DNA of 52,411 nucleotides from a virus. How positions within the stretch are numbered: position 1 is the stretch's first letter; every line of letters begins with the position of its first letter. A model generated the notes under the pieces. That model made no database searches and was not told the origin of the DNA. It saw only the letters and a list, made by a program, of their open reading frames with translations. Shown here in pieces: positions 1 through 19,703 of the stretch. The translations under genes and the position numbers were made by a program. The stretch lies in IMG/VR virus record IMGVR_UViG_3300009488_002371, positions 1 to 52,411 of that record, one strand, 5' to 3'.

Positions 1-294
1 CACGCCGGCATGGCTATCATAGGGACACAGATAATTCAGGAGCAGCGCCGTGTAGTCGAAGCCTCTAATGGGCCGCGTTGTGCCGTCCGCACCAAACGCT
101 ATCTCAGGCACAAGGAGGATGCCCCCGAAGATCTCAACCCCATCACGCTCCACCGTCACTTCCGAGAACGCCGTCAAATATTCAGGCCGGGGCAGCCTCG
201 TGGAGAACGTAGCCATGGCCGTAGTGAGCCAGTCTATCGAAAGCGACTCGCTGAAGTCCTTCTCCACGTCGTTGATTTTAAGCGTCGCCCTCAT
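1..294 (-). CDS. Tail hub / late-control-like protein, N-terminal part
   Basis: The gene starts at ATG 294, overlapping the tape-measure stop by ATGA, and runs off the left edge, so only 98 residues are seen. The visible part is beta-rich, with a pattern typical of siphovirus hub N-termini: a short ligand stretch, 'FSTRLPRPEYLTAF', 'VTVERDGVEIFGGILLVPE', then 'GFDYTALL'. Such proteins form the ring at the tail tip below the tape measure. Position directly after the tape measure supports this. The C-terminal part may be the fragment at the right edge of the window if the genome is circular, but the two ends do not join in frame directly. The specific hub assignment is inference. Confidence 0.6.
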   Translation of the reverse strand, partial: MRATLKINDVEKDFSESLSIDWLTTAMATFSTRLPRPEYLTAFSEVTVERDGVEIFGGILLVPEIAFGADGTTRPIRGFDYTALLLNYLCPYDSHAGV

Positions 295-1802
295 ATCGTC
301 TTACCACGCCTCCTCAATTCAAGGAAGTGCTCCTCCGCCGTCAGGTCCCCCAGCCTCCGAGCTCCGGCCCTGTCGCCTATCAGGCTCTTTATGTTGAAGA
401 CAAAGGTGGGAGAGTACCCTTCTTCACCGCGAGGAGCCGTTTCTTGTCCCGCCGTTCCACCACGGGTAATCTGGCTAATAGGAGTAATGGAGACCAGCTC
501 AGGCCCCGCCTCTCCGGCGAGGATAACCGTGGGTCTGGACACGATGCCGTGGAGGCCGTGTTGGGCTGTTTCGTCTATCTTTTGATAGTATGGCCATTTG
601 GCTATACGTTTGTAAAGTACATCCCTATCCCACGAAGGAATGTCTACTCCTCCCGTATATGGCCCCACATCACCTCTAGTGAGACGAGGTGCCCCCTGTG
701 GAGCGACTGTTGGTCCAGTTATGAGGGTTTTAAAGGCGCTAATGACATCTTGTGCCGCTTTAGTTTGCTTGAAAAACTTTTCTAGTGCCTCAGTTGCGCG
801 TTCGATGATGTCCTCTAGGTCGCCGAAGTTCTTCTCCAAGAGGTCAATTACCTCTGAGGTCGCATCCCTTATTCCGAATAGGTTTGCTTCCCATGCAACT
901 CGGAGAGCCCCTATCGCCACGGTGACGGCGATTATAGGTATCAAAATGGGCGCTATCGCAGCTTCCACAGCAACTATCGGCGGGATTAATCCATACAAGG
1001 ATCTGACAAGCAGGGGTAGTGCCTGAACGGCGATGATAGTTATCGCCGGAGCCAGCATCTGGAAGACGGGAGCCAATGCGCCAAGTGGCCCCAACATTTC
1101 ACCGAGGCCGGTGGTCACGTTTTTTATTGTCGCCGTCCATTGATCCATCGCCCGATCGGTAGCAGCAATGTTGTCGCCTAGAATAGCCGCCTTCTCCGTG
1201 ATCTTCTCCAGAGCCATAGTCTGGAACGCTATACGGCGTTCGTTCTCAGTCAGTGTTGCAGTGGTCTTCCCCACGGACCGGGCGTATTTGATATAGGCGT
1301 CTTCAGCTCGAACGATGATACCCAGGTTGTCCAGCACAAGACGGCTCTGACGGCCAACACCAAGCGTCAACGACTGTATGCCCTGTGTAGCGTCGATGCC
1401 CATGGCCTTCCCGAGGCGGATGGCGGCGCCGAATAGTTCGTCAAGCTCTTCCGTGGGTATCCCCAGGGCGAGGGCTTCGTTTGCCCTGAGAAGCAGGTCG
1501 GAGTCCGACACCATGCCCTGAGTCGCCTTGCGGAGCTCCTCAAGGGAGGGCACGTATTCCCCTGCTGCGGCAGATAGGGCGGCAAAGGACCTGCGCAGTG
1601 TCTGGATCTGGGCGCCCAGCTTAAGGGATGCTATGGCTCCCTGAGTCAATGCCCGCGCAAAGTCCCGCATGAGGACACCGGCAGCGATCTTAGCGGAGTT
1701 CTTTAAGCTATCGATCATGCCTGTGGCCGTGCTCATACCTCGCTTGAACTGACTCGTGTCCGTCGACAGGTAGATGATTAGGTTTCCGCCGACTATTGCC
1801 AT
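291..1802 (-). CDS. Tape measure protein (tail length)
   Basis: 503 residues. The N-terminal half is Ala/Leu-rich and helical; a central strongly hydrophobic block (about residues 235-310, rich in I/L/V/A) could form membrane-spanning helices; a charged helix follows ('EVIDLLEKNFGDLEDIIERA'). This is the usual layout of siphovirus tape measure proteins, which sit inside the tail tube and set its length. At about 1.5 angstrom per residue, 503 residues would give a tail near 75 nm. It follows the frameshifted tail chaperone and a gp10-like gene and overlaps the next gene (ATGA), as expected for the tail operon. It is short for the family but complete. Confidence 0.85.
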   Translation of the reverse strand: MAIVGGNLIIYLSTDTSQFKRGMSTATGMIDSLKNSAKIAAGVLMRDFARALTQGAIASLKLGAQIQTLRRSFAALSAAAGEYVPSLEELRKATQGMVSDSDLLLRANEALALGIPTEELDELFGAAIRLGKAMGIDATQGIQSLTLGVGRQSRLVLDNLGIIVRAEDAYIKYARSVGKTTATLTENERRIAFQTMALEKITEKAAILGDNIAATDRAMDQWTATIKNVTTGLGEMLGPLGALAPVFQMLAPAITIIAVQALPLLVRSLYGLIPPIVAVEAAIAPILIPIIAVTVAIGALRVAWEANLFGIRDATSEVIDLLEKNFGDLEDIIERATEALEKFFKQTKAAQDVISAFKTLITGPTVAPQGAPRLTRGDVGPYTGGVDIPSWDRDVLYKRIAKWPYYQKIDETAQHGLHGIVSRPTVILAGEAGPELVSITPISQITRGGTAGQETAPRGEEGYSPTFVFNIKSLIGDRAGARRLGDLTAEEHFLELRRRGKTI

Positions 1803-2216
1803 TTACACATACCTCCGTGGAAGAATTATTAACTCTCTGAGAAGACGCCTCATGATCGGAACCGCCTTCTTCGAGGCTGCTGGAAGAAGATAGGGCTGAG
1901 GCGTCTGTCGACTGGTCCCAAATTCAACATAGACCGCGTAGTTAACGAGCTTCCCCGTCTTAGGATTCACCTCGTAGCCGCCAGCCCTGACACCTACACG
2001 GGTTATATCCCCCGCCCTCGCAGCCGTAACTATCAACCGAATGCTATCCCGGAGCGCCCCTGTGTCAACTGGAACGAGCTCCTTAGCCTCCGTTTTAACT
2101 TCTTCGGCGACCTTCTTCAAGACACGGATGGCTGCGGGGTTAATGCCCTCGGTTAGAGCCAGAAAGTTACGTTTGACTTGTTCTGTGCCTACGAGTTTAA
2201 AGTGGGATCTCGCCAT
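1803..2216 (-). CDS. HK97 gp10-like head-tail/tail completion protein
   Basis: 137 residues. It carries the family signature 'LVPVDTGALRDSI' (about residues 46-58), followed by 'VYVEFGTSRQTPQPYLLPA' (about 94-112), which is characteristic of HK97 gp10/Pfam Phage-HK97-gp10-like proteins that take part in head-tail joining or tail completion. ATG 2216 overlaps the stop of the frameshift extension of the upstream chaperone (TAATG), implying translational coupling. Its place between chaperone and tape measure is unusual; in many phages it precedes the tail tube gene. Confidence 0.8.
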   Translation of the reverse strand: MARSHFKLVGTEQVKRNFLALTEGINPAAIRVLKKVAEEVKTEAKELVPVDTGALRDSIRLIVTAARAGDITRVGVRAGGYEVNPKTGKLVNYAVYVEFGTSRQTPQPYLLPAASKKAVPIMRRLLRELIILPRRYV

Positions 2217-2401
2217 TATGCTGCCGTCACCTTAATCCGTTTACTCCACACTAGAACGTCTACAAGAAACTCCAAAACTTCATCGGTGAGACTCGAAACT
2301 ACTTCAGGGGACGCCCACGCGAAGTGAAGCATTATCATGCCCTTCTTCTGGGCCTCGAAGTCAGCTTCAAGCCAGCTAAGCCGTTTCTGACGAGGTGTTA
2401 T
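2216..2401 (-). CDS. Tail assembly chaperone -1 frameshift extension (GT-type)
   Basis: An open frame of 61 codons with no start codon of its own at its beginning continues the upstream 165-residue protein if ribosomes slip -1 on the T TTT TTA heptamer at 2407-2401. It begins at codon ATA 2401 (ITPRQKRLSWLEADFEAQKK...) and ends with TAA at 2218-2216. The fusion product would be 226 residues. Tail assembly chaperones of many siphoviruses are made as a short form plus a frameshifted long form just before the tape measure, as here. The peptide has an ordinary amphipathic, coding-like composition. Coordinates give the extension only. Confidence 0.8.
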   Translation of the reverse strand: MTPRQKRLSWLEADFEAQKKGMIMLHFAWASPEVVSSLTDEVLEFLVDVLVWSKRIKVTAA

Positions 2402-2407
2402 AAAAAA
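2351..2407 (-). promoter_or_regulatory. Programmed -1 frameshift site with downstream structure
   Basis: On the minus strand the zero frame reads AGT TTT TTA TAA, giving the canonical X XXY YYZ heptamer T TTT TTA directly before the stop. Nine nucleotides further, GTCAG (2391-2387) can pair with CTGAC (2364-2360). The CTGA of the latter is also the loop of a hairpin formed by GGCTTGAAG (2373-2365) and CTTCGAGGCC (2360-2351, one bulge). Hairpin loop plus upstream pairing would make a pseudoknot at the spacing seen at known -1 sites. The heptamer and both frames are directly visible; the pseudoknot is inference by eye. Confidence 0.75.
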
Positions 2408-2895
2408 CTGCCCTGCTCCGCGACGATCTTCGTCAGAATCAGGTCAATCCAATGTGCCGGCATGCGCTCCACGATTTTCTTGGTGCAGCGTTTGTCTGCC
2501 CTGCTAAGCATTATTTGGACCGACATGCGGTTAATGAGATCAATCCGCACGGCAGCGTTTTCATCCTCAATCCTCAGTATCTTAACTCGGTCAACTGAGT
2601 TAAGTGGACACCAATAGACATGGAAGCTATCATCGCCCAGCTCGGGCAACAGCAGCTTCTTAGGTTCCAAGGCATCGCTTAGGATCTCATCTATGTCGAA
2701 GAGGTTGCGGGCTTCGGCGAGGTCTCTGTGCGCGGCCTCTTCAAGCATCTTCGCCCGCTCTAGGTTGATCTCGTCAAGCGTCTTCTTCTTCTTAGGCTGT
2801 TTCGCTGGTTTTGTCTTTTTCTCCTTCTCTGCCTTCTGTTTCAGGGCTTCAAGCTTACGCTTAAGCTGTTCAGGGGTTAACCCTATGTCACTCAT
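2398..2895 (-). CDS. Tail assembly chaperone (G-type short form)
   Basis: 165 residues. A Lys-rich N-terminus (about residues 10-40) is followed by helical segments ('ERAKMLEEAAHRDLAEARNLF') and a domain 'FHVYWCPLNSVDRVKILRI...MSVQIMLSRADKR' resembling phage tail assembly chaperones that coat the tape measure during tail assembly. GGAGG lies 10 nt before ATG 2895, and the start overlaps the upstream gene by 8 nt. The stop TAA directly follows the slippery heptamer T TTT TTA, so it is probably also made as a 226-residue frameshift product. Family assignment rests mainly on position and the frameshift. Confidence 0.75.
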   Translation of the reverse strand: MSDIGLTPEQLKRKLEALKQKAEKEKKTKPAKQPKKKKTLDEINLERAKMLEEAAHRDLAEARNLFDIDEILSDALEPKKLLLPELGDDSFHVYWCPLNSVDRVKILRIEDENAAVRIDLINRMSVQIMLSRADKRCTKKIVERMPAHWIDLILTKIVAEQGSFL

Positions 2896-3157
2896 CTCTA
2901 TTTTTCCTCCATTTTACAAACTCTTCCCATTGGTCCAGTTTGACTATGCGAAGGTGAGTCGTTGAGAATGTCTGGTATATGAGCTTGAACTCCGGCAGGA
3001 CCTCCAGGTGCTTCTTAAGCCTCAGGTAGTCAAGCCAGGTCGTGGCGATGACGAAGGCCGCCGTCCCAGCGTACATGACATCCTCCTCTGACATTTCCTT
3101 TTTCAGCTCCTCGAAGGTGTACCTTCGGATCTGATCTGTTCTTGCCTCCATTCTCAT
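2888..3157 (-). CDS. Small hypothetical protein of the tail module
   Basis: 89 residues from ATG 3157, which overlaps the upstream stop as ATGA; a GTG one codon earlier is an alternative. The sequence is helical: 'RRYTFEELKKEMSEEDVMYAGTAAF' and 'TTWLDYLRLKKHLEVLPEF'. No family recognised. It lies between the putative tail terminator and the chaperone, a place where head-tail completion or minor tail proteins are usually encoded. Confidence 0.75.
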   Translation of the reverse strand: MRMEARTDQIRRYTFEELKKEMSEEDVMYAGTAAFVIATTWLDYLRLKKHLEVLPEFKLIYQTFSTTHLRIVKLDQWEEFVKWRKNRDE

Positions 3158-3393
3158 CACCTATAGTAAACATACCTCTTGTCAGGATCCTCGCCGACGC
3201 CGCATATCCAGATGCGTCCCTCGGCGGGGTCCTCGAAGACACGGCAGAATCCTATCTCATCGATGACCCTGCAGGCCTCCTCGACGAGCCGTTCCTCGGA
3301 CACGCTGACGAACTCGCCGTCAAGCGTCTCGAAGTAGCTCCATGTATAGTCTTCGTCGAATACGCAACGAAGCTTCTTGAATGTCTCTCTCAT
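3157..3393 (-). CDS. Small hypothetical protein of the tail module
   Basis: 78 residues from ATG 3393 (a TTG three codons upstream is also possible). Acidic, mixed alpha/beta: 'FETLDGEFVSVSEERLVEEACRVIDEIG', ending 'DPAEGRIWICGVGEDPDKRYVYYR'. No family recognised. It is coupled to the next gene by an ATGA overlap and so probably acts in tail or connector assembly. Confidence 0.7.
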   Translation of the reverse strand: MRETFKKLRCVFDEDYTWSYFETLDGEFVSVSEERLVEEACRVIDEIGFCRVFEDPAEGRIWICGVGEDPDKRYVYYR

Positions 3394-8373: not shown

Positions 8374-9264
8374 TCATACCCTAACATGTTCTTTATACCA
8401 TTCTAAGGTTCTACGGACTCCTTCTCTAAAGTCTACCTTCGGCCACCAGCCCAGAAGTTTCCAGGCGTAGTCTATGTCTATCTGCTCCTTCATTATCTGG
8501 CCCGGCCGGTCAGGGTAGAACTCAAGCGCCTTGTTAGTGGAGCCCGTCTCCTCCCTTATGATCTCGACCGTCTGCAGTACAGATAATTCCTCGCTGGTAG
8601 AGAAGTTGATGGTCTTATTTATTACGCCCTTCTCCAGCACCGCCAGAGTGCCCGCGACGACGTCGTCTACATATATGTAGCACCGGGTTTGCTCGCCGGA
8701 GCCGTCGATCGTGGCCGGCGCATCTATGAGCGCCTGGTTGAGGAATATGTAGATGGCGAGAGCGCCTCGGAGCCCTGGGCCGTAGGTCGTGCCGTATCTG
8801 AGGATGTTGTAGCGTAGCCCCCTTTCAGCGTATTCCTTTATTGTGTACTCGCTGAGCAGCTTCGTGACGGCGTATATCTCCGTCGGCACGCAGGTGCTAT
8901 GCTCGTTGCTCGGGTGATCCGATGAATTTCCATAGACACAGCATGTCGAGACGAAGTGAAGGGGCACACCGTAATGCAGGCAGGCCTCGATGAAGTTATG
9001 CGTTCCTCCCACGTTGACCGCAACGCAGTGAGCCGGGTTCTTCCGGGCGTCGTTTATGTTAGCCTCAGCAGCCAGGTGGAGCACGGCCTCCACGCTTTGA
9101 ACGGCGGCGAACACGGCGGCCCGGTCGGTTATGTCTCTGACTATGGACTCGCATAGGCTCGTCTCTATGAGGTCGAAGCACACGGGCTTGTAGCCCCGGT
9201 CGACCATTATCTCTATGAGACGCCTGCCGATAAAGCCGGCGCCCCCGGTAACTAAGATTCTCAT
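8374..9264 (-). CDS. NAD-dependent sugar epimerase/dehydratase (extended SDR)
   Basis: 296 residues from ATG 9264, preceded by GGAGAA and overlapping the upstream stop (ATGA); upstream in-frame codons are not needed. Rossmann motif 'TGGAGFIG' at residues 7-14, 'VLHLAAEANI' near 70 and the catalytic Y-x3-K in 'YAVTKLLSEY' identify an extended short-chain dehydrogenase acting on a nucleotide sugar (UDP-hexose 4-epimerase or dTDP-hexose 4,6-dehydratase type). First of three SDR genes in the glycan module. Substrate not determinable. Confidence 0.9.
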   Translation of the reverse strand: MRILVTGGAGFIGRRLIEIMVDRGYKPVCFDLIETSLCESIVRDITDRAAVFAAVQSVEAVLHLAAEANINDARKNPAHCVAVNVGGTHNFIEACLHYGVPLHFVSTCCVYGNSSDHPSNEHSTCVPTEIYAVTKLLSEYTIKEYAERGLRYNILRYGTTYGPGLRGALAIYIFLNQALIDAPATIDGSGEQTRCYIYVDDVVAGTLAVLEKGVINKTINFSTSEELSVLQTVEIIREETGSTNKALEFYPDRPGQIMKEQIDIDYAWKLLGWWPKVDFREGVRRTLEWYKEHVRV

Positions 9265-10145
9265 TTCTCCAAAGCTCCTCTGAACATTTCCTCGTATCCG
9301 GCGACCCGGCGCCGCCAATCCCAGTTCTCAAGAACCTCTCGGCGGTTCCGTTCGCCTACTCGATGACGAAGATCCACGTCTTCCTTTAAGATGTCCAGGC
9401 GTTTATTCATTTCGCGGACGACGACATCGTCGGGCTCGACCGGTACAAGCCACTCCTCTTCGACGAGCTGGGCCATGTCGCCGACGTCGGTGGATACTAT
9501 GGGGAGCCCGCAGGCGGCTGCTTCGATGGCTACGCTTGTCATACCCTCCACGTTGCTCGTGTGAACCAGGCAGTCTATACCCGCGTAGAACCGTTGCATG
9601 GGCTCCCGGCTGGCTCCCTTCTTGAAGTATTTTCCCCAGCGCCGGCACATAATCCGAACTGGGTGGTCTAGCTGTCTTGCCAGCTGAACGCGCTTACAGG
9701 GACGCTCAGCGGAGCCCGCCCAGCCAAGTTTGAAGGTTTCCCCCGATCGGGAGGTCGGCTGGAAGATGTCCGTGTCGACCCCATTGGGCGTGAAGTAGAT
9801 ATTATCAGCATCGGGGAACGCCTCCTTGAGTATTTTGTAGGTTTTCAGGCTGTTGCAGCCGATAGCGTTGAAGTGATGTGCTTCCTTGATGACATAAGGG
9901 TCTGGTGGGTTAGTTCGGACGCCGATACATTTCCGCATGCGATTGAAACAAATTCTGCGGTCGCCTATGACATCCCACGTTGGGTAGTTGAAGGGAAAGA
10001 CCAGGTCGAAGCGGCCGTCTCCGCTGGCAACCTCATCAAACTTCTTGACCTCGTATTCGTAGGCCGTGCTATGTTTCACTATGCCACGGCTGACGAAGTC
10101 GAAAGCCCAGCCATGCTGGTCGATTAGGATTAAGACTGACTTCAT
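9261..10145 (-). CDS. GT4-type glycosyltransferase
   Basis: 294 residues, GT-B fold. Visible are 'FTPNGVDTDIF' (about 120), 'FKLGWAGSAERPCKR' (linker into the nucleotide-binding domain) and 'SNVEGMTSVAIEAAACGLPIVSTDVGDM' (E-x7-E motif of family GT4). It is a shortened GT4 and shares the N-terminal 'GWAFDF' and overall layout with the enzyme at 18013-18900, so the two are paralogues. Overlaps both neighbours by ATGA. Confidence 0.88.
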   Translation of the reverse strand: MKSVLILIDQHGWAFDFVSRGIVKHSTAYEYEVKKFDEVASGDGRFDLVFPFNYPTWDVIGDRRICFNRMRKCIGVRTNPPDPYVIKEAHHFNAIGCNSLKTYKILKEAFPDADNIYFTPNGVDTDIFQPTSRSGETFKLGWAGSAERPCKRVQLARQLDHPVRIMCRRWGKYFKKGASREPMQRFYAGIDCLVHTSNVEGMTSVAIEAAACGLPIVSTDVGDMAQLVEEEWLVPVEPDDVVVREMNKRLDILKEDVDLRHRVGERNRREVLENWDWRRRVAGYEEMFRGALEK

Positions 10146-11245
10146 CTTAACCAGTTCAGGTCTTTGATGGTCGAGACCACAAGGTTGACTTCCTCATCGG
10201 TGAGCTCGGCGTGGAGCGGAATATGGATGATGTCATCGTTTACCCTCTCAGTGTTCGGCAGATCCTGCTTGCCACCGAAGAGGGTGTACTGATCGTTCCT
10301 CCAGTTGTGGACCGCCACCTCGATGTCCTCTGCCCTCATGGCCTTCGCGAAGGCGATCCTGTTTTCGACGTGGACTGGGAACAGCCAGTTAGCCGACTTC
10401 TTATAGCGCTCCTGTTCCATAAGCGTCAGCCCGTCGACGCCCTCAAGTTGCTGACGATAGCACCCCGCTATCTTCCGTCGCCTCGCGAAAGCAGCGTCGA
10501 AGGCCTTCAGTCCCTCCAAGCCCATGACAGCGGCCACATCGTTCATGCCGTATTTGAAGCCCAGACGGGTTATGTCCTCAGGGAATTTGCCGAGGGGGCT
10601 GGCGACCCGCTTGTCTTTGTCTATGCCGAACCAGATGCGCTCCTTGGCCTCCTCGTAGACTTGACGCCGGTTCGTGACGAACATGCCGCCGTCCGCCGTG
10701 GTTATGTGCTTGATGGCTTGGAAGCTGAAGCAGGAGAAGGACTTGTCCCCCACGGGGTGACCCCGGTATTTCGCGCCCAGGGCCTGAGCTGCGTCCTCCA
10801 CTATCCATAGCCCGTGCTCAGAGGCGACATTGTAGATCTCATCCATGTCGCAGGGGTAGCCACCGTAGTGGACTATGGCTATGCCTACCGTCTTATCGTT
10901 AATCCGGTGCCCAATGTCATCGGGGTCTATGTTAGCCGTTCCATATTTTATGTCGGCGAAGACAGGTTTGAAGCCAGCCTCGAGGAGGGCGGTGTTGGTG
11001 GCCACCATGGTGTAGGGCGTCGTTATGACCTCGCTTCCGGGAGCGGCTCCTGCTATCGTGTATGCGAGCCTCAGAGCAGATGTGCATGAGGTGACGGACA
11101 GGGCATACTTATAGAAGAACTTCTTCACGAAGGCTTCCTCAAACTCGGTGGCTTTCTCCCCACGGTTTATCCAGCCGCTCCGAATCAGGTCGGCTACCGC
11201 CTCCGCCGTTCCCGGCGGGATGTTTGTGGAGAAGAGGCGTATCAC
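10142..11245 (-). CDS. DegT/DnrJ/EryC1/StrS sugar aminotransferase
   Basis: 367 residues, full family length. 'VTSCTSALRLAY' (PLP phosphate contacts), 'IVEDAAQALGA' (Asp stacking on PLP) and 'CFSFQAIKHITTADGGM' (Lys forming the Schiff base) are present. These enzymes move an amino group from glutamate to a keto group at C3 or C4 of a nucleotide sugar. With the N-formyltransferase of the same cluster it points to an N-formylated amino sugar. ATGA overlaps on both sides. Confidence 0.92.
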   Translation of the reverse strand: MIRLFSTNIPPGTAEAVADLIRSGWINRGEKATEFEEAFVKKFFYKYALSVTSCTSALRLAYTIAGAAPGSEVITTPYTMVATNTALLEAGFKPVFADIKYGTANIDPDDIGHRINDKTVGIAIVHYGGYPCDMDEIYNVASEHGLWIVEDAAQALGAKYRGHPVGDKSFSCFSFQAIKHITTADGGMFVTNRRQVYEEAKERIWFGIDKDKRVASPLGKFPEDITRLGFKYGMNDVAAVMGLEGLKAFDAAFARRRKIAGCYRQQLEGVDGLTLMEQERYKKSANWLFPVHVENRIAFAKAMRAEDIEVAVHNWRNDQYTLFGGKQDLPNTERVNDDIIHIPLHAELTDEEVNLVVSTIKDLNWLR

Positions 11246-12159
11246 TTCGTCGCCTCCATGTTTAGGCTGATCAGGATTCCGTTTTCCTTATCCATGTGGG
11301 GGATGTAGGCCTGAGAGTAATCGTCGTAATCCTTATGGATTGTCTCACGCCAGTCGTATCGTCGCACGTTTTTGAAGCATGCGGATTCAAGCACATTTTT
11401 CAAGGAATCAAAGTCGTAGGCGGTCTTCAGGTAGATGAAGCCGTCACCCGAGGGCCACTTACCGTATAGGGGCCCCAATATTCCCCGGTGTTTTAAATCG
11501 CCGTATTTGAGGTACACCTTGACCACGGCCCCAAAGTCCGTGACCGCCAGACGCAGGATGCCGCCCGGCTTCAGGACTCGGTGCCATTCCTTCAGGACTT
11601 GTGGCACTTCATCGAAGCCGTCGAAGTATTGAAACGCGTGGCTGCAATAGATCAGGTCGACGGTGTCATCCTCAAACATGGATAAATGCTGTATGTCCTC
11701 ATTATGATCGATATGGGGGTAGTCCGTCAGGTCTATGTGTATGAAGCCGGGAATGAACTTCTCGCCACAGCCCAGATGAAGCCTGATTTCATCGTTGCCC
11801 TCGTTTATTTTATTGACATGGCTCCGCCAGAGCGGGTGATGCTCCTTTTTCTCCCACGGCTTGGGACCCCACTCCATCACAATCGTTTCTGGCATTAGCG
11901 CCAAGAAGAAGTGAGGCGTGCCTGGCGGGATGTGAATAGCATCTCCCCTTGAAAGCGTGCGTGCACGCTCGCCTTCGACATAGTATTGAACTGAGCCCGC
12001 TATGACAACGGCGTCCTCAGCGCTTTCCTTATGGACGCAGCCGCCTCGGGCGTATCCCTTCTTGGTCGTGAAAAGGGTTAGCTCCCGGTCTTCAGGAAGT
12101 AGCCCCGTTATGAGGTGGATTTCTCCACGCTTATCCTCATGTATTTTCTCCAGTCTCAT
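11242..12159 (-). CDS. Cupin - SAM methyltransferase fusion
   Basis: 305 residues from ATG 12159 (GGAGAA before it). Residues about 1-105 are a cupin: 'RGGCVHKESAEDAVVIAGSVQYYV' and 'LSRGDAIHIPPGTPHFF', with the G-x5-P-x-G-x-P-H pattern. Residues about 125-305 are a class I methyltransferase with 'IRLHLGCGEKFIPGF' (motif I) and 'EDDTVDLIYCSHAF'. Cupins in sugar clusters can be 3,4-ketoisomerases (FdtA/QdtA type) or 3,5-epimerases, which would suit the neighbouring aminotransferase. The methyltransferase half may methylate the same sugar. Exact reactions are not determinable. Confidence 0.8.
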   Translation of the reverse strand: MRLEKIHEDKRGEIHLITGLLPEDRELTLFTTKKGYARGGCVHKESAEDAVVIAGSVQYYVEGERARTLSRGDAIHIPPGTPHFFLALMPETIVMEWGPKPWEKKEHHPLWRSHVNKINEGNDEIRLHLGCGEKFIPGFIHIDLTDYPHIDHNEDIQHLSMFEDDTVDLIYCSHAFQYFDGFDEVPQVLKEWHRVLKPGGILRLAVTDFGAVVKVYLKYGDLKHRGILGPLYGKWPSGDGFIYLKTAYDFDSLKNVLESACFKNVRRYDWRETIHKDYDDYSQAYIPHMDKENGILISLNMEATK

Positions 12160-13090
12160 TTCTCCACAACTCAATCGTTTTCTTCAAACCTTCTTCTAAG
12201 CACATCGGCTCAGGAACCTTCAGCACTCTCCTGATCTTCTGGTTTGAGCCGACAAGGTGCATGATGTCGAGGGGTCGCTTAGGCATCTGACGCCAGACGA
12301 CGTCGCCCTCGAAGCCCGTCAGACTCGCCGTTAAGTCGGCGAGCTCGCGTATCGATGTTCCAATTCCCGAGGAGACGTTGAATGTCTCTCCTATCGCCTT
12401 CGGGTTCTCTAAGGCCGCCAGGTATGCCTCCAGCTGGTCGGTGAAGTAGAGGAAGTCCCGGACCGGCTCGGGGTCCCCGAGCTGGCACTCTTTCTCATGC
12501 AGCATCTGGTAGATGATTTTCTCCACGACGAACCATTTATCCCGTTTCCGGCCATAGCTGTTAAAGAACCTGAGCAGGGTGACGGGGAAGTTGAAGGCCT
12601 TGTGCATATACGTCAGGTACTTCTCAGCTGCGTATTTGCTCACCGAGTACGGGCTATTCGGAATCAGCCGGGGATTGCTCTCTGTCTTCAGCTTCTGGTT
12701 GCAGACGCCGTAGACCTCCGCCGAGCTTGCGTAGATGAACTGCTGGAAATTCGGGATATTCCGCATACAGAGCTCGGCTAGGTTCACCGTGCCAATGAAG
12801 TTCGTCTCAAGGGTTTCCTGTGGATGCATGTACGAGTAGCCGACAGCCGTCAACGCGCCCAGGTGTACAACGATGTCGGGTTTGATCTTCTGAATACACT
12901 TCGTCAGCGAGAAGACGTCTCTGAGGTCGGCGTACCAGAGCTCCTCAGGTGGGGTAACGTTCTTGCCGATGCGCCCCGTCACGTACCGCTCAAGGCTGTA
13001 AATCTTGTAGCCCAGCTCCCTGAGCCGGGGGCGGAGCTCGCTTCCGATGAAGCCTGTTGTGCCGGTTAGAAGTATATTACGCCAGGACAC
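12137..13090 (-). CDS. NAD-dependent sugar epimerase/dehydratase (extended SDR)
   Basis: 317 residues from GTG 13090 (AAGGAG 10 nt upstream); codons further upstream lie inside the previous gene and lack homology. 'LLTGTTGFIGSEL' is the dinucleotide-binding loop; 'VVHLGALTAV', 'YASSAEVYG' and 'YSVSKYAAEKY' (Y-x3-K) complete the active site. The motif 'SPYSVSKYAAEKYL' resembles GDP-mannose 4,6-dehydratase/RmD and UDP-GlcUA decarboxylase relatives. Overlaps the cupin gene by 23 nt. Confidence 0.9.
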   Translation of the reverse strand: MSWRNILLTGTTGFIGSELRPRLRELGYKIYSLERYVTGRIGKNVTPPEELWYADLRDVFSLTKCIQKIKPDIVVHLGALTAVGYSYMHPQETLETNFIGTVNLAELCMRNIPNFQQFIYASSAEVYGVCNQKLKTESNPRLIPNSPYSVSKYAAEKYLTYMHKAFNFPVTLLRFFNSYGRKRDKWFVVEKIIYQMLHEKECQLGDPEPVRDFLYFTDQLEAYLAALENPKAIGETFNVSSGIGTSIRELADLTASLTGFEGDVVWRQMPKRPLDIMHLVGSNQKIRRVLKVPEPMCLEEGLKKTIELWRNETGENT

Positions 13091-13091
13091 G

Positions 13092-14021
13092 CTACACAAG
13101 CTCCTTAAAGTATTCGAGGACCCGGGCCGCCTGCACCTCTGATGAATGATATTTGAGGAAGGTTTCATGTCCCCGCTGGGCAATGGCTTTCCGCTCTTCC
13201 TCGTTTTTGAGGTAGTAGCGGATTTTCTTTCTAAAGTTTGTTCGGTCTATTTCTACGAAGTTCTCTCCGGGGGCGAGGTGGAGATCCTCTGCGCATGTGG
13301 GGGTGTCCATCATTATCAGGGTGTTTGTAGCCATACCCTCTATTGTCTTTGGCTGGAGGAAGGCGTAGTCCTTTTTGCCTAGGAGGGGTTCGTGGCAGTT
13401 TCCTGTAGCCAGGATTTTGGACTGCCCCATTCTTTCTGCGTAGCCCTCAAGGGTTGGAATAGACTTATCCCCAGCGCGTACCCAACAACGTGGGTTTTTA
13501 TGGTATGTATAGTATATAGCGTTGCGAAGGGGGTATGTTTCCGGGCTCATGTTCCCTGTGAGGAAAACATCGTAGATACGTTCTAGATCCGTGGGCTTGA
13601 ATAGGTCGGCTTCTACGGATGGAAATAGTTTGACGCATCGTGCCTTAACCAGTTTCTGGTATTCTGGCTGGGCGGCGCCCTGATAGAGGAAAACGAGGTC
13701 AAAGTCTTCTTTGTTTATCCATTCGGTGTGGCGTAAAATGCTTCTCCAGGGATCGGAGCACATGACGCCCTTTGGGACGATGAGTTTATCGATGTTCTTA
13801 AAGTTCTCTGAGTTGTTGAAAACGTTAGCGAAGAACATTACAAAGTCGGCGTCGGCCTCCTCAGCTTGTTTCTGGATGTCGGCTGCGAAGCCGGTTCTTC
13901 CGCTGAACGTCATGTCGGCGATTTCGCTCATTCGCTGCTCGAGGGCGTGATAGTAGTGGCGGAATGAGTGGCCACGCCTGGCGTGCTCATAATAGTCGAG
14001 GGTTATCCACAGAATTTTCAT
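13092..14021 (-). CDS. Glycosyltransferase, CgeB/GT1-like
   Basis: 309 residues, GT-B-like. The N-terminus 'MKILWITLDYYEHARRGHSF' and the C-terminal half with 'YDVFLTGNMSPETYPLRNAI', 'YAFLQPKTIEGMATNTLIMMD' and 'ENFVEIDRTNFRKKIRYYL' resemble Glyco_trans_1_2/CgeB-type transferases, whose last region reads 'E-x-[LIM]-A-[CT]-G/N...LIxxD'. Overlap ATGA with the upstream radical SAM gene. Ends in TAG. Confidence 0.75.
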   Translation of the reverse strand: MKILWITLDYYEHARRGHSFRHYYHALEQRMSEIADMTFSGRTGFAADIQKQAEEADADFVMFFANVFNNSENFKNIDKLIVPKGVMCSDPWRSILRHTEWINKEDFDLVFLYQGAAQPEYQKLVKARCVKLFPSVEADLFKPTDLERIYDVFLTGNMSPETYPLRNAIYYTYHKNPRCWVRAGDKSIPTLEGYAERMGQSKILATGNCHEPLLGKKDYAFLQPKTIEGMATNTLIMMDTPTCAEDLHLAPGENFVEIDRTNFRKKIRYYLKNEEERKAIAQRGHETFLKYHSSEVQAARVLEYFKELV

Positions 14022-15238
14022 ATTAATCCCATCTTCTTGAATCGTTCTAAAAGCATTATTTGGGCGTCGCGTAGGTCTTGCGCGTTCATCTCCTCAGTCT
14101 CAACGACCACGTTACCCTGCATGCCTTTGCCTACTATGAGGTACTTGCTAAAGTCCCTCGTTAAAATCTTCATGCCAAACGCGTCGGGGTCATTCCAGAC
14201 GGGGCTCCCTGGGTAGGGCGTGAAGAGGCAGACAATCACCTCATCTGGTCGGTTTCTCTCGATGAAGTCAAGGGAGGCATGGATCGTATCCCATGTTTCT
14301 CCTGGGCTGCCAACAATTATAGATGCCTTGGTCGGTATTCCGGCTTCAACGGACCTGTTTATCGCTAGTGCATTCTGCTCAACAGTGGTATCTTTTTGGA
14401 GGTTGTCGAGTATAGTCTGGCTCCCGGACTCTATGCCATAGACTATCTGAACGCATCCTGATTCCTTCATAGCCGTTAAGACTTTCTCGTCTACAAGGTC
14501 AGTTCTTGTCAGACACCGCCATATAACCCAGCGTTTTTTGAATCCGTCAAGTATCTCGAAAAACCTTGGTTTGTTACGTGTGAAGATGTCGTCCCTTATG
14601 TTGAAGGCCTGTATGCCGTATAGTTGGATGCACTCATCGACCTCTGATAGGACGTTGGCCGCGCTTCTATACCTGACCTTTTTTCCTCGGGCGTCCTTAC
14701 AACAGAAAGCACATCGGTAAGGACATCCCCGTGAAGTAACTAGGCTGGTTGACTTCAAGCCGCCAATCGTTCTAGTATATTCATAGTTTGATACGAGGTG
14801 TCTGGCGGGGAAGGGAATTGTGTCCAGGTTCTCTATTGGAGAACAACTTATGATCTTCTCCGAATCTTCTTCAAGTGCCTTGAGGATGGCCTCTTCCCCT
14901 TCTCCGACTACGACCTTGTCGAAGTGTTCAGCCATCTCATGGGGCATACATGTCGGATGTGGCCCCCCGACTATTCGGAGTGAGTCTGGGTAAAGGTTTT
15001 TCACGTATTGATTTACTTCCAAAGCAGAGTCGAGGATAGAAGACGAACAGTAAACACCATATACATCCGCTTCATGGTTTTTTAGTACGCTCAAGTCATC
15101 ATGGAAATTCATATCCACGACTTCGACTTCCACGCCTTTTCCTTCAAGGATGGCTCCCAGATAGAGCAGGCCCAGAGGCTCGTCCCAGCGGGGATCCTCG
15201 TCCACGGTGTCCATTGGATTAATCAGACAAACCTTCAT
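14018..15238 (-). CDS. B12-binding radical SAM enzyme (BchE/class B type)
   Basis: 406 residues. Residues about 1-135 form a cobalamin-binding-like Rossmann domain ('LGLLYLGAILEGKGVEVEVVD', 'RIVGGPHPTCMPHE', 'VVVGEGEEAI'). 'SRGCPYRCAFCCKD' near 170 supplies the Cx3Cx2C ligands of the 4Fe-4S cluster, and 'IVYGIESGSQTIL' and 'IVGSPGETWDTI' are typical later motifs. These enzymes do radical methylations, cyclisations or sugar/lipid modifications under anoxic conditions. Inside the glycan module a C-methylation or deoxygenation of a sugar is plausible but unproven. Confidence 0.88.
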   Translation of the reverse strand: MKVCLINPMDTVDEDPRWDEPLGLLYLGAILEGKGVEVEVVDMNFHDDLSVLKNHEADVYGVYCSSSILDSALEVNQYVKNLYPDSLRIVGGPHPTCMPHEMAEHFDKVVVGEGEEAILKALEEDSEKIISCSPIENLDTIPFPARHLVSNYEYTRTIGGLKSTSLVTSRGCPYRCAFCCKDARGKKVRYRSAANVLSEVDECIQLYGIQAFNIRDDIFTRNKPRFFEILDGFKKRWVIWRCLTRTDLVDEKVLTAMKESGCVQIVYGIESGSQTILDNLQKDTTVEQNALAINRSVEAGIPTKASIIVGSPGETWDTIHASLDFIERNRPDEVIVCLFTPYPGSPVWNDPDAFGMKILTRDFSKYLIVGKGMQGNVVVETEEMNAQDLRDAQIMLLERFKKMGLI

Positions 15239-15253
15239 TATGACTGGCCTCTG

Positions 15254-16252
15254 TCAATTAGCGTGGTTTTTATTTAAAACCCAGTCAAAGTATTTGGCTA
15301 TTCCATCCTTCAAGTTGACTTCTGGTTTAAACCCGAGCTTCTTCTCTGCTAAGGATATGTCTGCCATGAATCTTCTGACGTCGCTGGGGCGGGGCGGTAA
15401 GTGGGCTGGCTCTAAACTCCTTTCTCTACCTGTTTTCTCCGAGGCCACGTTTAAGATGGTTTCAGCCAGTTCGTTTATGCTTGTTTCGACCCCGGTGCCG
15501 AAGTTGATTGCTCTCCCAAATATATCTAGTTCCTCATATCTGTCCAGAATCAGCTCGTATGCGTTTATCAGGTCGTCAATATAGTGGAAATCCTTTGTCT
15601 GCTCTCCGTCGCCGTAGACGGTGGGGGACTTTCCGCTTAGGACCTGGGAGCAGAATTTGGGTATGACCGCCGAGTAGCCTTTAAACCTCTGTCGGGGGCC
15701 GTATGTGTTGAACTGTCTGAGGATTACGACGGGCATTTTGTATGTGTGGTAGTATGCTGAGCAGAGCCTGTCGGAGGCCGCCTTTCCTGCGGCATAAGGG
15801 GATTGTGGGTTGAACGGGTGTTTTTCATCCATTGGCGTGTACTGGGCGGTTCCGTAGACTTCTGAGGTGGAGGCGTAGACCATTAGTTTAACGGGGTTTC
15901 TTCGAGTCAGGGTTCTTCTGACGGCCTCTAATACGTTGAGGGTTCCTATGGCGTTGACTTGAAAGCTGGGAACGGGATTGTTTATTGACTCCTCCCAATG
16001 CACCTGTGCGGCTAGGTGGAAGACGATGTCGATGTCGTGTACTATGTCGTTTAAGAGGAAAACGTCGAGTATTGATTCCTTTATGAAGTGGAAGTTGGGG
16101 GCGTAATTGTAGCAGGCTCTAATATTATCGTGTATGCTGCTTGAAAGGTCATCCAAGACAATTACTTTATGGCCTATCTTCAGAAGGTACTCAGCCAGGT
16201 TGCTTCCGATGAAGCCTGCGCCACCCGTTATTAGAATGCTTAGTTTGCTCAT
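15254..16252 (-). CDS. NAD-dependent UDP-sugar epimerase (GalE/WbpP-like SDR)
   Basis: 332 residues with 'ILITGGAGFIGSNLAEYL', 'VFHLAAQVHWEES', 'VYASTSEVYGTAQY' and 'SPYAAGKAASDRL' (Y-x3-K), then 'LRQFNTYGPRQRF' and 'VYGDGEQTKDFHYIDDL'. This is the most canonical SDR in the cluster, close to UDP-glucose/UDP-GlcNAc 4-epimerases and dTDP-glucose 4,6-dehydratases. The latter would supply the 4-keto sugar needed by the aminotransferase. Confidence 0.92.
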   Translation of the reverse strand: MSKLSILITGGAGFIGSNLAEYLLKIGHKVIVLDDLSSSIHDNIRACYNYAPNFHFIKESILDVFLLNDIVHDIDIVFHLAAQVHWEESINNPVPSFQVNAIGTLNVLEAVRRTLTRRNPVKLMVYASTSEVYGTAQYTPMDEKHPFNPQSPYAAGKAASDRLCSAYYHTYKMPVVILRQFNTYGPRQRFKGYSAVIPKFCSQVLSGKSPTVYGDGEQTKDFHYIDDLINAYELILDRYEELDIFGRAINFGTGVETSINELAETILNVASEKTGRERSLEPAHLPPRPSDVRRFMADISLAEKKLGFKPEVNLKDGIAKYFDWVLNKNHAN

Positions 16253-16257
16253 TGTGG

Positions 16258-16878
16258 CTACCCTTTGAGACTGATTTTGTATATGGTTTCTGACCGCATG
16301 ATTTCGCCGTTTTCGATGTTTATTATTTGCAGGTCTTTTACTTTTTCATTGTTTTCTATTTTGGTTACTAGGTCTTCTCTGTTATATCTGATCGTGTAGA
16401 AGTGTTCTCCTTTCTTGATCGCCATGGGGTCATCCCAGGGCTCTTTCTCGAAGATGATGAGCACCTGTTTCCGGGCGATCCTTATCAGTTGATTGAGGAT
16501 GTCGTGGTATTCCTCGGGCTTGAAGTTGACGAAGGTGTTTATGCAGATGACGGCGTCGAAGGTGCCGTCGGGGTATATTCCGTCTATTATGTTTCCGTGG
16601 CATACTTCGATTTCAGGATGGACTTCCTTCGCGTGATCTAGGAACTTCTTTGTCAGGTCTAGTCCAGTGTATTTTATGCCTCTTTCCTTGAAGTGGGGGT
16701 ACGGAACACACGATGCACAGCCAACGTCGAGAACCGATTCACCGACTTCTTGAACGATGTCCGCTACCAGTTTGAACATGTTTTCTCTTAAGATACAGAA
16801 CTCTGGCCCGCTATGCGTGCGCAAGAAGTTAGGGGCGGCATTGCCTTGCCACCATTTTTCCCAGTCTCTTAGACTCAT
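16258..16878 (-). CDS. Class I SAM-dependent methyltransferase
   Basis: 206 residues with motif I 'VLDVGCASCVPYPHF' near 65, an acidic motif 'YTGLDLTKKFLDHAKE', and 'FDAVICINTFVNF' (motif IV region). Small-molecule or sugar methyltransferase by context. Overlaps the formyltransferase stop (ATGA). Confidence 0.87.
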   Translation of the reverse strand: MSLRDWEKWWQGNAAPNFLRTHSGPEFCILRENMFKLVADIVQEVGESVLDVGCASCVPYPHFKERGIKYTGLDLTKKFLDHAKEVHPEIEVCHGNIIDGIYPDGTFDAVICINTFVNFKPEEYHDILNQLIRIARKQVLIIFEKEPWDDPMAIKKGEHFYTIRYNREDLVTKIENNEKVKDLQIINIENGEIMRSETIYKISLKG

Positions 16879-17573
16879 TTTGAAAAACTTCTTAGATACT
16901 CCTCGAAACGGAATGGAATTGATCTATCGATTTCCGGGGGGACTCGCCCGCGTGACTTGCCTTCCGGCCTGATCAGGTTGAAGTCCCCTATTTTCTTATT
17001 CTTAATTGTCTTCAGCGTGGGCTTTATCAACGCGACTTGGTGATCATAAAGCCTCTGCTCTACGTCGTATATGGAGTCGTCTTTGAACATGGGCACTTTA
17101 TTCCGAGATATAATTCTCCCAGCGTCGACTCTGTAGTTTATGAAGTGAACGGTTATCCCCTGGGGAATATCTAGATATATGGCCCACTGTAAAGTGTCCA
17201 AGCCCCTGTTCTCCGGCAGTAGCCCAGGGTGGACGTTCACGATTCCATAGTTGAAGGCTTTTATGATTTTATCTTTTAGTATTCTAGCCCCGCCGATGAA
17301 GGCGACGTCTAAATCGTATTTCTTGATTAGGACCCGGCACTCCTCTGAGTTGTGAACTACGGAGTGATAGGGAATATCTAGCAGGTCCGCGATCTCCTTC
17401 GGGTGGAAGGGGGGCTCTCGTTTCACCCTTGTTCTGTTCTCGAGGTCGGGTATGTTCAGCTGCCTCCATGGAGCCGCCAACACACAGCTCAGCCCATGGT
17501 GTTTCTCGAGGGCGATCATGAAGTCGGTGGTCTTGATGTGCGGGAAATCATAGGCGAATAATCCCACATTCAT
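16875..17573 (-). CDS. Sugar N-formyltransferase (methionyl-tRNA formyltransferase family)
   Basis: 232 residues from ATG 17573, which overlaps the stop of the 31-codon gene (ATGA). 'GIVNVHPGLLPENRG' near residue 110-124 holds the Asn and His of the formyl-transfer active site, and 'FINYRVDAGRII' near 145 supplies the catalytic Asp. This N-H-D triad with a single catalytic domain and no tRNA-binding OB domain fits 10-formyl-THF-dependent sugar N-formyltransferases (WbkC/VioF/FdtF type) rather than Fmt. Together with the DegT enzyme it suggests an N-formylamino sugar. One of the most telling genes of the module. Confidence 0.88.
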   Translation of the reverse strand: MNVGLFAYDFPHIKTTDFMIALEKHHGLSCVLAAPWRQLNIPDLENRTRVKREPPFHPKEIADLLDIPYHSVVHNSEECRVLIKKYDLDVAFIGGARILKDKIIKAFNYGIVNVHPGLLPENRGLDTLQWAIYLDIPQGITVHFINYRVDAGRIISRNKVPMFKDDSIYDVEQRLYDHQVALIKPTLKTIKNKKIGDFNLIRPEGKSRGRVPPEIDRSIPFRFEEYLRSFSK

Positions 17574-17665
17574 TTCCAAGGGGGCAACCATCTCTGGCAC
17601 TTGGGGCATTTCTTAGGCTTCTCAACGCGGGGCTTCCACTCGTAACCACAGAACTTGCAGATCAC
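17570..17665 (-). CDS. 31-residue zinc-ribbon microprotein
   Basis: Starts at GTG 17665 overlapping the upstream stop (GTGA), GGAGG 10 nt upstream; ends in TGA overlapping the formyltransferase ATG. The product has two C-x2-C knuckles, 'ICKFCGYEW' and 'KCPKCQRWLPPWK', a rubredoxin-like minimal zinc ribbon. Coupled on both sides, so very likely translated. Function unknown. Confidence 0.7.
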   Translation of the reverse strand: MICKFCGYEWKPRVEKPKKCPKCQRWLPPWK

Positions 17666-17922
17666 TTCTCGCTTTCCTCCAGAACTCTGAGGATTCCAAA
17701 AGGAGATAGACCAAAAGTGGTATCGCAATCCCCCTCGAATGGGATCTCATAATATAAAAAGAACACACTGCATTGAAGTGCATATATGAACATCATGGCA
17801 CTCACAAATCGGAAGGGATTATCCCAATATGGAGGAAACATGAACCACCAAGCTGATATTGCCAATGAGATAAAGATCTGAGGCAGTAAGGCCTTTTGAT
17901 AGTGAGTCATGTGAGTTATCAT
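17662..17922 (-). CDS. Small membrane protein (two TM segments)
   Basis: 86 residues. Two hydrophobic stretches (about 12-30 'LLPQIFISLAISAWWFMF' and 38-58 'RFVSAMMFIYALQCSVFFLY') indicate two membrane spans, followed by a short acidic C-terminus. First gene after the internal promoter at 17983-17991. In a glycan module such a protein might help membrane association, but it is not a recognised flippase. Confidence 0.75.
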   Translation of the reverse strand: MITHMTHYQKALLPQIFISLAISAWWFMFPPYWDNPFRFVSAMMFIYALQCSVFFLYYEIPFEGDCDTTFGLSPFGILRVLEESEK

Positions 17923-17982
17923 TGCGTTTTTACCTCTGGATTATTCAATGTCATAGGGCTCTGATTACTATTACAACAATAA

Positions 17983-17991
17983 CTATAAAAG
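17983..17991 (-). promoter_or_regulatory. TATA-like promoter inside the glycan module
   Basis: Minus strand CTTTTATAG, an archaeal TATA-type box, in the 90-nt AT-rich gap 17923-18012. Initiation about 25 nt downstream would leave a leader of some 35 nt before ATG 17922. It splits the glycan module into two transcription units. Confidence 0.55.
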
Positions 17992-18012
17992 GTCTTTTAT
18001 CCCCCTATTTTG

Positions 18013-18900
18013 TTATTTTCTGCTCAATTCCTCGAAAAGCCGATCCCAGTTTTCAATGAGAATGTTCCATGAGTAGGTTTTAAGGATGAACTCCCGGTTT
18101 GCTTTTCCGACGCTCTTTATCAGATCCCTGTCTTTGTCCAGTATCCCTAATTTTATGTTGGCTTCCCTTACGACGACGTCGTCAGGATCACCGGGGATAA
18201 GCCATCTCTCCGGCACTACCTTTGAGAAGCTGCAGATGTCGGTGCTGACAACAGGAAGCTCACAGCACATAGCCTCCATCAGAGTGCTCCCGATGCCGTG
18301 AGCCCTGTCCTCCCTCATCAGAGAAACGTAGACGTCTAGGTTGTTGTAGAACTCTACCATCGGCTGCTGACTGCGACCTTTGACGAAGAACTCGGGACCA
18401 TGGTCTCCCTTAATCTTCACAGGGTAGTTTAAGAGCTTAAGCAGGTGCGTTCTTTTTATCGGGCGATTGGGGTTGCCAGCCCAGCCCACTCTCAGCTCTT
18501 CAGAATGTGGTTTTTCCAGTGGTACGAAAAGGTCGGAGTTGACCCCTGCCTGCAGTAAAACGGTGTTTGTGATTCCAAGTTTCTCGGCTTTCTTCATGAG
18601 GCGGTCAGTACATAAAGCGAATACGTCGATGGCTGAAGGCGGGGGAGCGAAATAGGTTCCGGCACACCACATGATAAGCGGTTTTTCACATGCCTTCTTC
18701 CGCACTCCATAGCCGAGGTTATCCCAGATCCATCTGCTGAAGACGAAGATAACGTCATGCTCTTCTATGGTTTTTGAGGTCACTGTGCCTAGGGGTGACA
18801 CTGCAGTAGCGGTGACATCGTGTTTAGAAAATTCACTTATATCCCTGCCAATGAAGTCGAAGGCCCAGCCAAAACTGTCAGCGATGATGAGTACCTTCAT
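18013..18900 (-). CDS. GT4-type glycosyltransferase
   Basis: 295 residues. 'DSFGWAFDFIGRDIS' at the start, 'LLQAGVNSDLFVPL', 'LRVGWAGNPNRPIKR' and 'EDRAHGIGSTLMEAMCCELPVV' (E-x7-E region) define a compact GT4. It is a paralogue of the enzyme at 9261-10145 (shared GWAFDF start and GWAG-x4-P-x-KR linker). Last gene before the internal promoter; ATGA overlap with the upstream GT2. Confidence 0.87.
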   Translation of the reverse strand: MKVLIIADSFGWAFDFIGRDISEFSKHDVTATAVSPLGTVTSKTIEEHDVIFVFSRWIWDNLGYGVRKKACEKPLIMWCAGTYFAPPPSAIDVFALCTDRLMKKAEKLGITNTVLLQAGVNSDLFVPLEKPHSEELRVGWAGNPNRPIKRTHLLKLLNYPVKIKGDHGPEFFVKGRSQQPMVEFYNNLDVYVSLMREDRAHGIGSTLMEAMCCELPVVSTDICSFSKVVPERWLIPGDPDDVVVREANIKLGILDKDRDLIKSVGKANREFILKTYSWNILIENWDRLFEELSRK

Positions 18901-19703
18901 GCTCCCAACCCCCAGTTCTCATCGTTGCGCAGTATTCGGCTATAACCCTTTGTCCACTGTTCACTCTGCCTTATGACCGCGATGGTTTCCTTGTCGTCGA
19001 TTCTATACGCCGTAAGCGGCACGTTCGCATGATGCAGATGGTATATAATCGTCTCCTCTTCCACGGCGTTGTCAAGCCGCCGACGAGCCATTCCAGCACG
19101 AGCGGCTCGCTTCCACATGTCCACGTCCTCCCAGCCCCAGATCGTCATGCGCTCGTCGAAGCCCTGGCACTCATACCACCATTCGGAGGGGGCGCTTACG
19201 AATCCGCCCCAGCCCTCTGATATGTGGGCCCAGCGGCCTTTTTTCAGTTTCTCGTAGTCTTGTGGAAGATTGATGGTTGCGGGGTCCAAGGCCGCTGGTT
19301 CTAGGAGCACTACACGGCTGCTCATGTAGATGCGCGGGTGTATGCTGTGTATCCCGTGGGCAAATTCGAGGACGCAGGGCTCCATTACAAGGTCGGCGTC
19401 GAGGGCGCATGAATACCTCGCCGTGGCCCGGCGCAGGCCGATGTTACGGGCGACGGCGAGGCTCCAGGGTGCGTCAGTTTCGCAGCGGTAGACGGTGCAG
19501 TCGGGCAGGAGCTGCATCAGCTTCTCATGGTTTTCCTCGGTGGATCCGTAGTCGACTACGATGAGCTCCAGGGGCTGGAGCTCCTGCAGCTCTACGCTTT
19601 TCAGGCAGCTGCGGAGCATGTGTCCGCATCGGTTGCGGATGGGGATGACTACCGAGTAGGCCGGATCCTCGACTTCGTGAAGCTGAACGGTTTCAAGGTT
19701 CAT
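18897..19703 (-). CDS. GT2-type glycosyltransferase (galactosyltransferase-like)
   Basis: 268 residues, GT-A fold. 'YSVVIPIRNRCGHML', 'ELIVVDYGSTEENHEKL', 'ARNIGLRRATARYSCALDAD' (D-x-D metal site) and 'GFDERMTIWGWEDVDMWKRA' (the W-E-D motif of glycosyltransferase family 2 C-terminal acceptor sites) are all present. Complete. Overlaps its neighbours. Confidence 0.88.
   Translation of the reverse strand: MNLETVQLHEVEDPAYSVVIPIRNRCGHMLRSCLKSVELQELQPLELIVVDYGSTEENHEKLMQLLPDCTVYRCETDAPWSLAVARNIGLRRATARYSCALDADLVMEPCVLEFAHGIHSIHPRIYMSSRVVLLEPAALDPATINLPQDYEKLKKGRWAHISEGWGGFVSAPSEWWYECQGFDERMTIWGWEDVDMWKRAARAGMARRRLDNAVEEETIIYHLHHANVPLTAYRIDDKETIAVIRQSEQWTKGYSRILRNDENWGLGA

Follow-up and report, generated by a model that had tools for sequence, protein, structure and literature searches.

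Two forms of the tail assembly chaperone, G and GT, are known from lambda (gpG/gpGT) and HK97 (gp13/gp14), where a short G open reading frame (ORF) precedes the tape measure region, a -1 slippery heptamer lies near its 3' end and the T extension is read in the -1 frame without a start of its own. The -1 G/GT frameshift has also been reported for the haloarchaeal viruses HVTV-1, HCTV-1, HCTV-2 and HCTV-5 (PMC5009743, PMC8211752) and for Hardycor1 (PMC7911831), in each case at a site other than U_UUU_UUA, while +1 shifts have been reported for HSTV-2 and the HF1 group (PMC5009743, PMC8211752, PMC7911831, PMC7230728). Besides these halovirus predictions, archaeal recoding is represented by one experimentally studied -1 case, that of alpha-L-fucosidase (PMC8211752). 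The present analysis concerns a viral sequence of 52,411 nucleotides, IMG/VR record IMGVR_UViG_3300009488_002371, which is referred to over its whole length as the window. Its minus-strand gene at 2895-2216 most probably encodes a tail assembly chaperone, that of a long-tailed virus of the Caudoviricetes which probably infects an archaeon, with a -1 frameshift leading to GT. A frameshift of the lambda/HK97 type, as predicted from the sequence, is well supported. The locus resembles the lambda and HK97 systems in the features named above and in a weak fold match to the HK97 protein (2OB9), and differs from them in its heptamer (U_UUU_UUA rather than the G_GGA_AAG of lambda), in a gp10-like gene placed before the tape measure gene and in its probable archaeal host. 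The elements of the site are as follows.

2895-2398, minus strand: predicted zero-frame, G-like tail assembly chaperone, 165 amino acids plus stop (ORF; homologues in the related contigs L002, L032 and L038; fold matches).
2407-2401, minus strand: slippery heptamer U_UUU_UUA (DNA T_TTT_TTA), in the zero-frame phase at the 3' end of the 165-amino-acid ORF.
2400-2398, minus strand: zero-frame stop TAA, directly 3' of the heptamer.
2401-2216, minus strand: -1 extension with a T-like domain, 61 codons plus TAA (ORF, selection, structure model).

The 165-amino-acid ORF ends GGC AGT TTT TTA TAA, so that the heptamer consists of the last T of AGT followed by TTT TTA. Shifted by -1, the same stretch reads TTT TTT ATA ACA CCT and stays open through 2401-2219 to a TAA at 2218-2216, the final A of which is also the first base of the ATG of the next gene at 2216. 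The first-pass annotation, made from the sequence of the window, had described the heptamer in this phase with the zero-frame TAA behind it, and a -1 frame open for exactly 61 codons up to a TAATG junction; both descriptions match the sequence exactly. The closest upstream stop in the -1 frame lies 12 codons 5' of the heptamer, and between the two there is no ATG, GTG or TTG, which leaves the extension without a start of its own. The minus-strand ORFs of at least 80 amino acids in the window contain 23 in-phase heptamers of the form X_XXY_YYZ (Y = A/T), and the one at 2407-2401 alone is followed by a -1 frame that continues for at least 30 codons beyond the zero-frame stop. The combination of heptamer and open -1 frame exceeds what is expected by chance.

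Relatives were collected by a scan of viral contigs, which gave L002, and by using the tape measure and head-tail adaptor proteins as queries, which gave L032, L035, L036, L037, L038, L039 and L042; L044 and L055 were added by further scans. A heptamer is found in the same phase and place in L002 (TTTTTTA), L032 (TTTTTTG) and L038 (TTTTTTA), with L039 identical to L038 in this region. The GT fusions of L002 and the window are 66% identical after alignment, and the T extensions of L002, L032 and L038, alignable over their full length, are 69%, 23% and 22% identical to that of the window. In these three relatives the zero frame runs 21-22 codons beyond the heptamer, whereas the window has its stop there. 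The joint chance that codon choice would give NNT-TTT-TTR in all four viruses, given codon usage and the conserved residues, is about 2e-8, a figure that treats the four as independent, ignores their shared ancestry and hence overstates the strength of the case. Two distant tape measure relatives, L033 (1970-2667) and L034 (5000-5751), have A_AAA_AAC in the equivalent gene, together with a -1 frame. Searching viral contigs for the extended site as a DNA pattern returned 28 loci, among which the only relative was L024, which is the same contig as L002. The U-type heptamer of L032 recalls the E/E+E' tail chaperone of phage P2, whose site is reportedly T_TTT_TTG and whose host, unlike that proposed here, is bacterial.

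Selection on the extension was assessed by comparing the window with L002. The ratio of non-synonymous to synonymous differences (pN/pS) is 0.32 for G and 0.32 for T, against 1.03 and 2.16 when T is read in either of the remaining frames, each of which contains 6-7 stops. Substitutions in T are distributed over the three codon positions as 14:8:26 (chi-square P 0.005). By these measures purifying selection on the -1 frame equals that on the zero frame. The annotation had proposed that relatives be compared for the heptamer and the second frame, and had named a -1 frame free of selection as grounds for refutation; U_UUU_UUR and a homologous -1 extension are kept in L002, L032 and L038/L039, and the pN/pS value for the window and L002 speaks for selection.

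It is proposed that the majority of ribosomes would end at the TAA and release the 165-amino-acid G protein. Some, in which tRNAPhe occupies the P site and tRNALeu the A site on UUU UUA, would slip by -1 to UUU UUU and read 61 further codons, giving a GT fusion of 226 amino acids (...GSFL-ITPRQK...). If lambda is a guide, the tape measure protein would be coated by G and GT together, and the T domain would recruit tail tube subunits. We infer that the slip is ribosomal, and the same holds for how efficient it is, what GT does and to which domain the host belongs.

The rival that survives best is transcriptional slippage, in which RNA polymerase would insert a U in the U6 run and so place the fusion frame in part of the mRNAs, without any slip by the ribosome. 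All four members have an uninterrupted U6 run, and sequence alone does not separate the two processes. In each of them, nevertheless, the run is exactly six and the next base a purine, as U_UUU_UUR demands, and the tape measure relatives L033 and L034 have A_AAA_AAC, a classic ribosomal heptamer. A U6 run is also short for transcriptional slippage, which is considered unlikely here.

Quite unlikely, too, is a two-part signal of the type found in human immunodeficiency virus 1 (HIV-1), in which the heptamer would act with an essential downstream pseudoknot. The following candidate stimulators were considered.

2395-2353, minus strand: predicted interrupted hairpin 3' of the heptamer (RNA folding), its pairs not conserved.
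2420-2415, minus strand: Shine-Dalgarno-like CGGAGC, 7 nucleotides 5' of the heptamer (p 0.25 against synonymous expectation).

The annotation had called the signal HIV-type and had read GTCAG/CTGAC together with a hairpin of nine base pairs as a pseudoknot candidate. The heptamer is indeed identical to that of HIV-1 gag-pol, where it is joined by a stem-loop (PMC4373837), but the window lacks a conserved downstream structure, its genes are unrelated and its C-terminal extension is short. The downstream RNA of the window folds as one interrupted stem of 4+5 base pairs, CCUC-GUCAG with CUGAC-UUC-GAGG, beginning 5 nucleotides 3' of the heptamer; GTCAG, which starts after 9 nucleotides, is the inner half of this stem and not a second pseudoknot stem. 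The hairpin is modestly stable (z -2.0, with 10 of 200 shuffles equally good). Of its 13 pairs, 7, 5 and 6 are kept in L002, L032 and L038, where fold stability gives z values of -0.8, -1.2 and +2.1, L038 being less structured than its own shuffles. Since the pairs are not conserved in relatives, the pseudoknot or hairpin was rejected as a conserved stimulator, and the hairpin is probably not a required one. Shine-Dalgarno-like purines stand 7-9 nucleotides 5' of the heptamer in all four viruses; as a stimulator they were rejected as well (p 0.24-0.57 in the four against synonymous resampling). The lack of a conserved structure and of Shine-Dalgarno enrichment counts against the proposed frameshift.

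The possibility that the -1 ORF is a short gene in its own right, expressed from an internal start or by termination-reinitiation, draws on a Met codon that lies 22 codons inside the extension, is preceded by AGAAGGG and could give a protein of 40 amino acids. It is rendered highly unlikely by the lack of any ATG, GTG or TTG ahead of this Met in the -1 frame, by the conservation of residues ahead of it (ITPR, and RL.WLEA.F.AQKK in L002) and by its replacement by Leu in L002 (TTG codon), L032 and L038. An error of sequencing or assembly, or decay of the gene, the true gene being continuous with T7, is the least probable of all: a single T insertion would join the frames, but contigs of three other metagenome series, with T domains 22-69% identical, show this break in the same phase, and error and pseudogene explanations are poor because purifying selection acts on T, equally with the zero frame, and the heptamer is conserved.

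The identity of the -1 frameshift gene was approached through its fold and its neighbours, of which the following are relevant.

1803-2216, minus strand: HK97-gp10-like tail-completion/neck gene (Pfam PF04883 2.5e-12; phrog_5 1.7e-19).
291-1802, minus strand: tape measure protein (PHROG tape measure families, best 2.8e-13).
2888-3160, minus strand: conserved gene of 90 amino acids, upstream of the chaperone in all relatives with the region.

The AlphaFold model of the 165-amino-acid protein has a mean predicted local distance difference test (pLDDT) score of 75, rising to about 90 in the C-terminal half. Its best fold match in the PDB is 2OB9, the HK97 tail assembly chaperone (prob 0.82, E 0.28), the second chain of which ranks third, and the BFVD matches include several phage proteins named tail assembly chaperone, none with E < 0.01. 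The T domain is modelled as four helices (pLDDT 88.5), for which a fold search gave no significant match. Three points weigh against assignment as a chaperone: the fold matches are weak, with a best PDB E of 0.28; Pfam and PHROG searches of the 165-amino-acid protein returned no convincing family and no chaperone family; and the gp10-like gene at 1803-2216 separates the gene from the tape measure gene, as it does in L002 and L032. A tblastn search with both the -1 and +1 chaperone types (see below) against 50,697 phage records likewise gave no match. A tail assembly chaperone, as the annotation had named it, is still the best reading on account of the weak HK97 fold match, the gp10-like and tape measure genes downstream and the G/GT layout.

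A second type of chaperone gene is present in four of the relatives.

L035:11487-11658, L037:9812-9986, L044:494-668 and L055:5768-5942: chaperone genes with an apparent +1 frameshift at UUU_CGC.

L035, L037 and L055 share capsid-side genes and the 90-amino-acid gene with the window; the +1-type chaperone is also that of L044, a short contig. Their G proteins end in F-R-K-E/K or F-R-P-K ahead of the stop, with T in the +1 frame. UUU_CGC is invariant at the junction, within UCC_UUU_CGC in three and AAG_UUU_CGC in L055; the evidence for +1 consists of junction and frame anatomy, and L035, L037 and L044 are mutually close. UUU-CGC has been noted at the +1 junction of HF1-group haloviruses (PMC7230728). 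The junction of these relatives is the one found in the HF1 group, whose shift, as in HSTV-2, is +1; unlike those haloviruses, they have capsid and packaging genes in common with viruses that use -1. Over most of their length the tape measure proteins of L035, L037 and L055 are unlike that of the window. Aligning the -1 and +1 T domains with hhalign gave a weak match (probability 66%, P 5.7e-5), from which homology is not claimed. The first 40-50 residues of the +1-type (L035:10944-11093) and -1-type (window:2746-2895) chaperones appear similar and the remainder differs, a pattern that suggests recombination inside the chaperone gene. Two ORFs of L035 flanking the 90-amino-acid gene, at 10227-10925 and 9178-9939, resemble HNH/homing endonucleases by eye.

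A change of shift direction within one virus group is likely but unproven. In both directions the tRNAPhe on UUU would be the one to slip, either backwards onto UUU or forwards onto UUC. In many archaea, and in eukaryotes, position 37 of this tRNA bears a wyosine derivative, which prevents -1 frameshifting; in Haloferax volcanii m1G takes its place (PMC7761594). It may be suggested, tentatively, that one group of archaeal tailed viruses uses -1 at U_UUU_UUR with one type of tape measure and +1 at UUU_CGC with another, both through slippage of archaeal tRNAPhe on UUU, with tRNA modification in the host setting the G:GT ratio; such tuning here would follow from the reported effect of wyosine.

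An archaeal host for the window virus is very likely, judging from MCM and PCNA in relatives and from the integrase and terminase models. The terminase matches a psiM2-type model, with psiM2 and psiM100 among the top hits, and the best NCBIfam model for the integrase is archaeal XerA. The record of L035 (G003), the nearest of the sister viruses, which encodes a full MCM helicase, is 85% identical to the window in terminase, 75% in portal and 78% in the product of 22577-23797, probably the major capsid protein; that of L055 (G008) encodes PCNA. MCM and sliding clamp genes have been reported in archaeal head-tailed proviruses (PMC11705971). On the other side, the terminase matches Gordonia phages about as well as psiM2, so that the window alone is not decisive; MCM and PCNA were located in the relatives and none was found in the window; and scans of named host genomes found no relative. 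Hjc resolvase, looked for as an archaeal marker, was absent. Between the capsid and tail genes of the window, 8374-22508 is occupied by a lengthy series of genes for glycosyltransferases, sugar epimerases, methyltransferases and B12-type radical SAM proteins.

The first-pass annotation held that a -1 signal so canonical in an archaeal virus would be notable. As a claim of novelty this goes too far, because the -1 G/GT frameshift itself is already known from phages and from HVTV-1, HCTV-1/-2/-5 and Hardycor1, with which the window group shares an inferred shift of this kind (PMC5009743, PMC7911831) and from which it differs in using U_UUU_UUA/G on tRNAPhe, a site kept over four lineages. The open-access papers searched, most subscription papers lying outside the scope, contained no chaperone site of the U_UUU_UUA type from an archaeal virus, and the U-rich site, like the apparent forward slip in close relatives, looks new. 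Two methanogen viruses show related arrangements. In the cultured psiM2 (L056, AF065411) the end of ORF19, upstream of the tape measure gene, lies near A_AAA_GGG (9252-9258) with an open -1 frame, and a -1 chaperone frameshift is possible there. In Methanobacterium virus Drs3 (L065, MH674343) the gene at the chaperone position, ahead of the tape measure gene, is ORF_00030; an unannotated +1 frame follows it, and the probable junction (23640-23642) reads UUU_CCU. The weak fold matches of the window G include a Drs3 protein as well.

Genes with such frameshifts are annotated in truncated form, which is a warning for annotation. What the locus provides is a -1 site of the U_UUU_UU type, supported by comparison, among viruses that are probably archaeal; close relatives show an apparent +1 shift in the equivalent gene. 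If the U_UUU_UUA site is used, it would allow the effect of wyosine on frameshifting in archaea to be tested by reporter.
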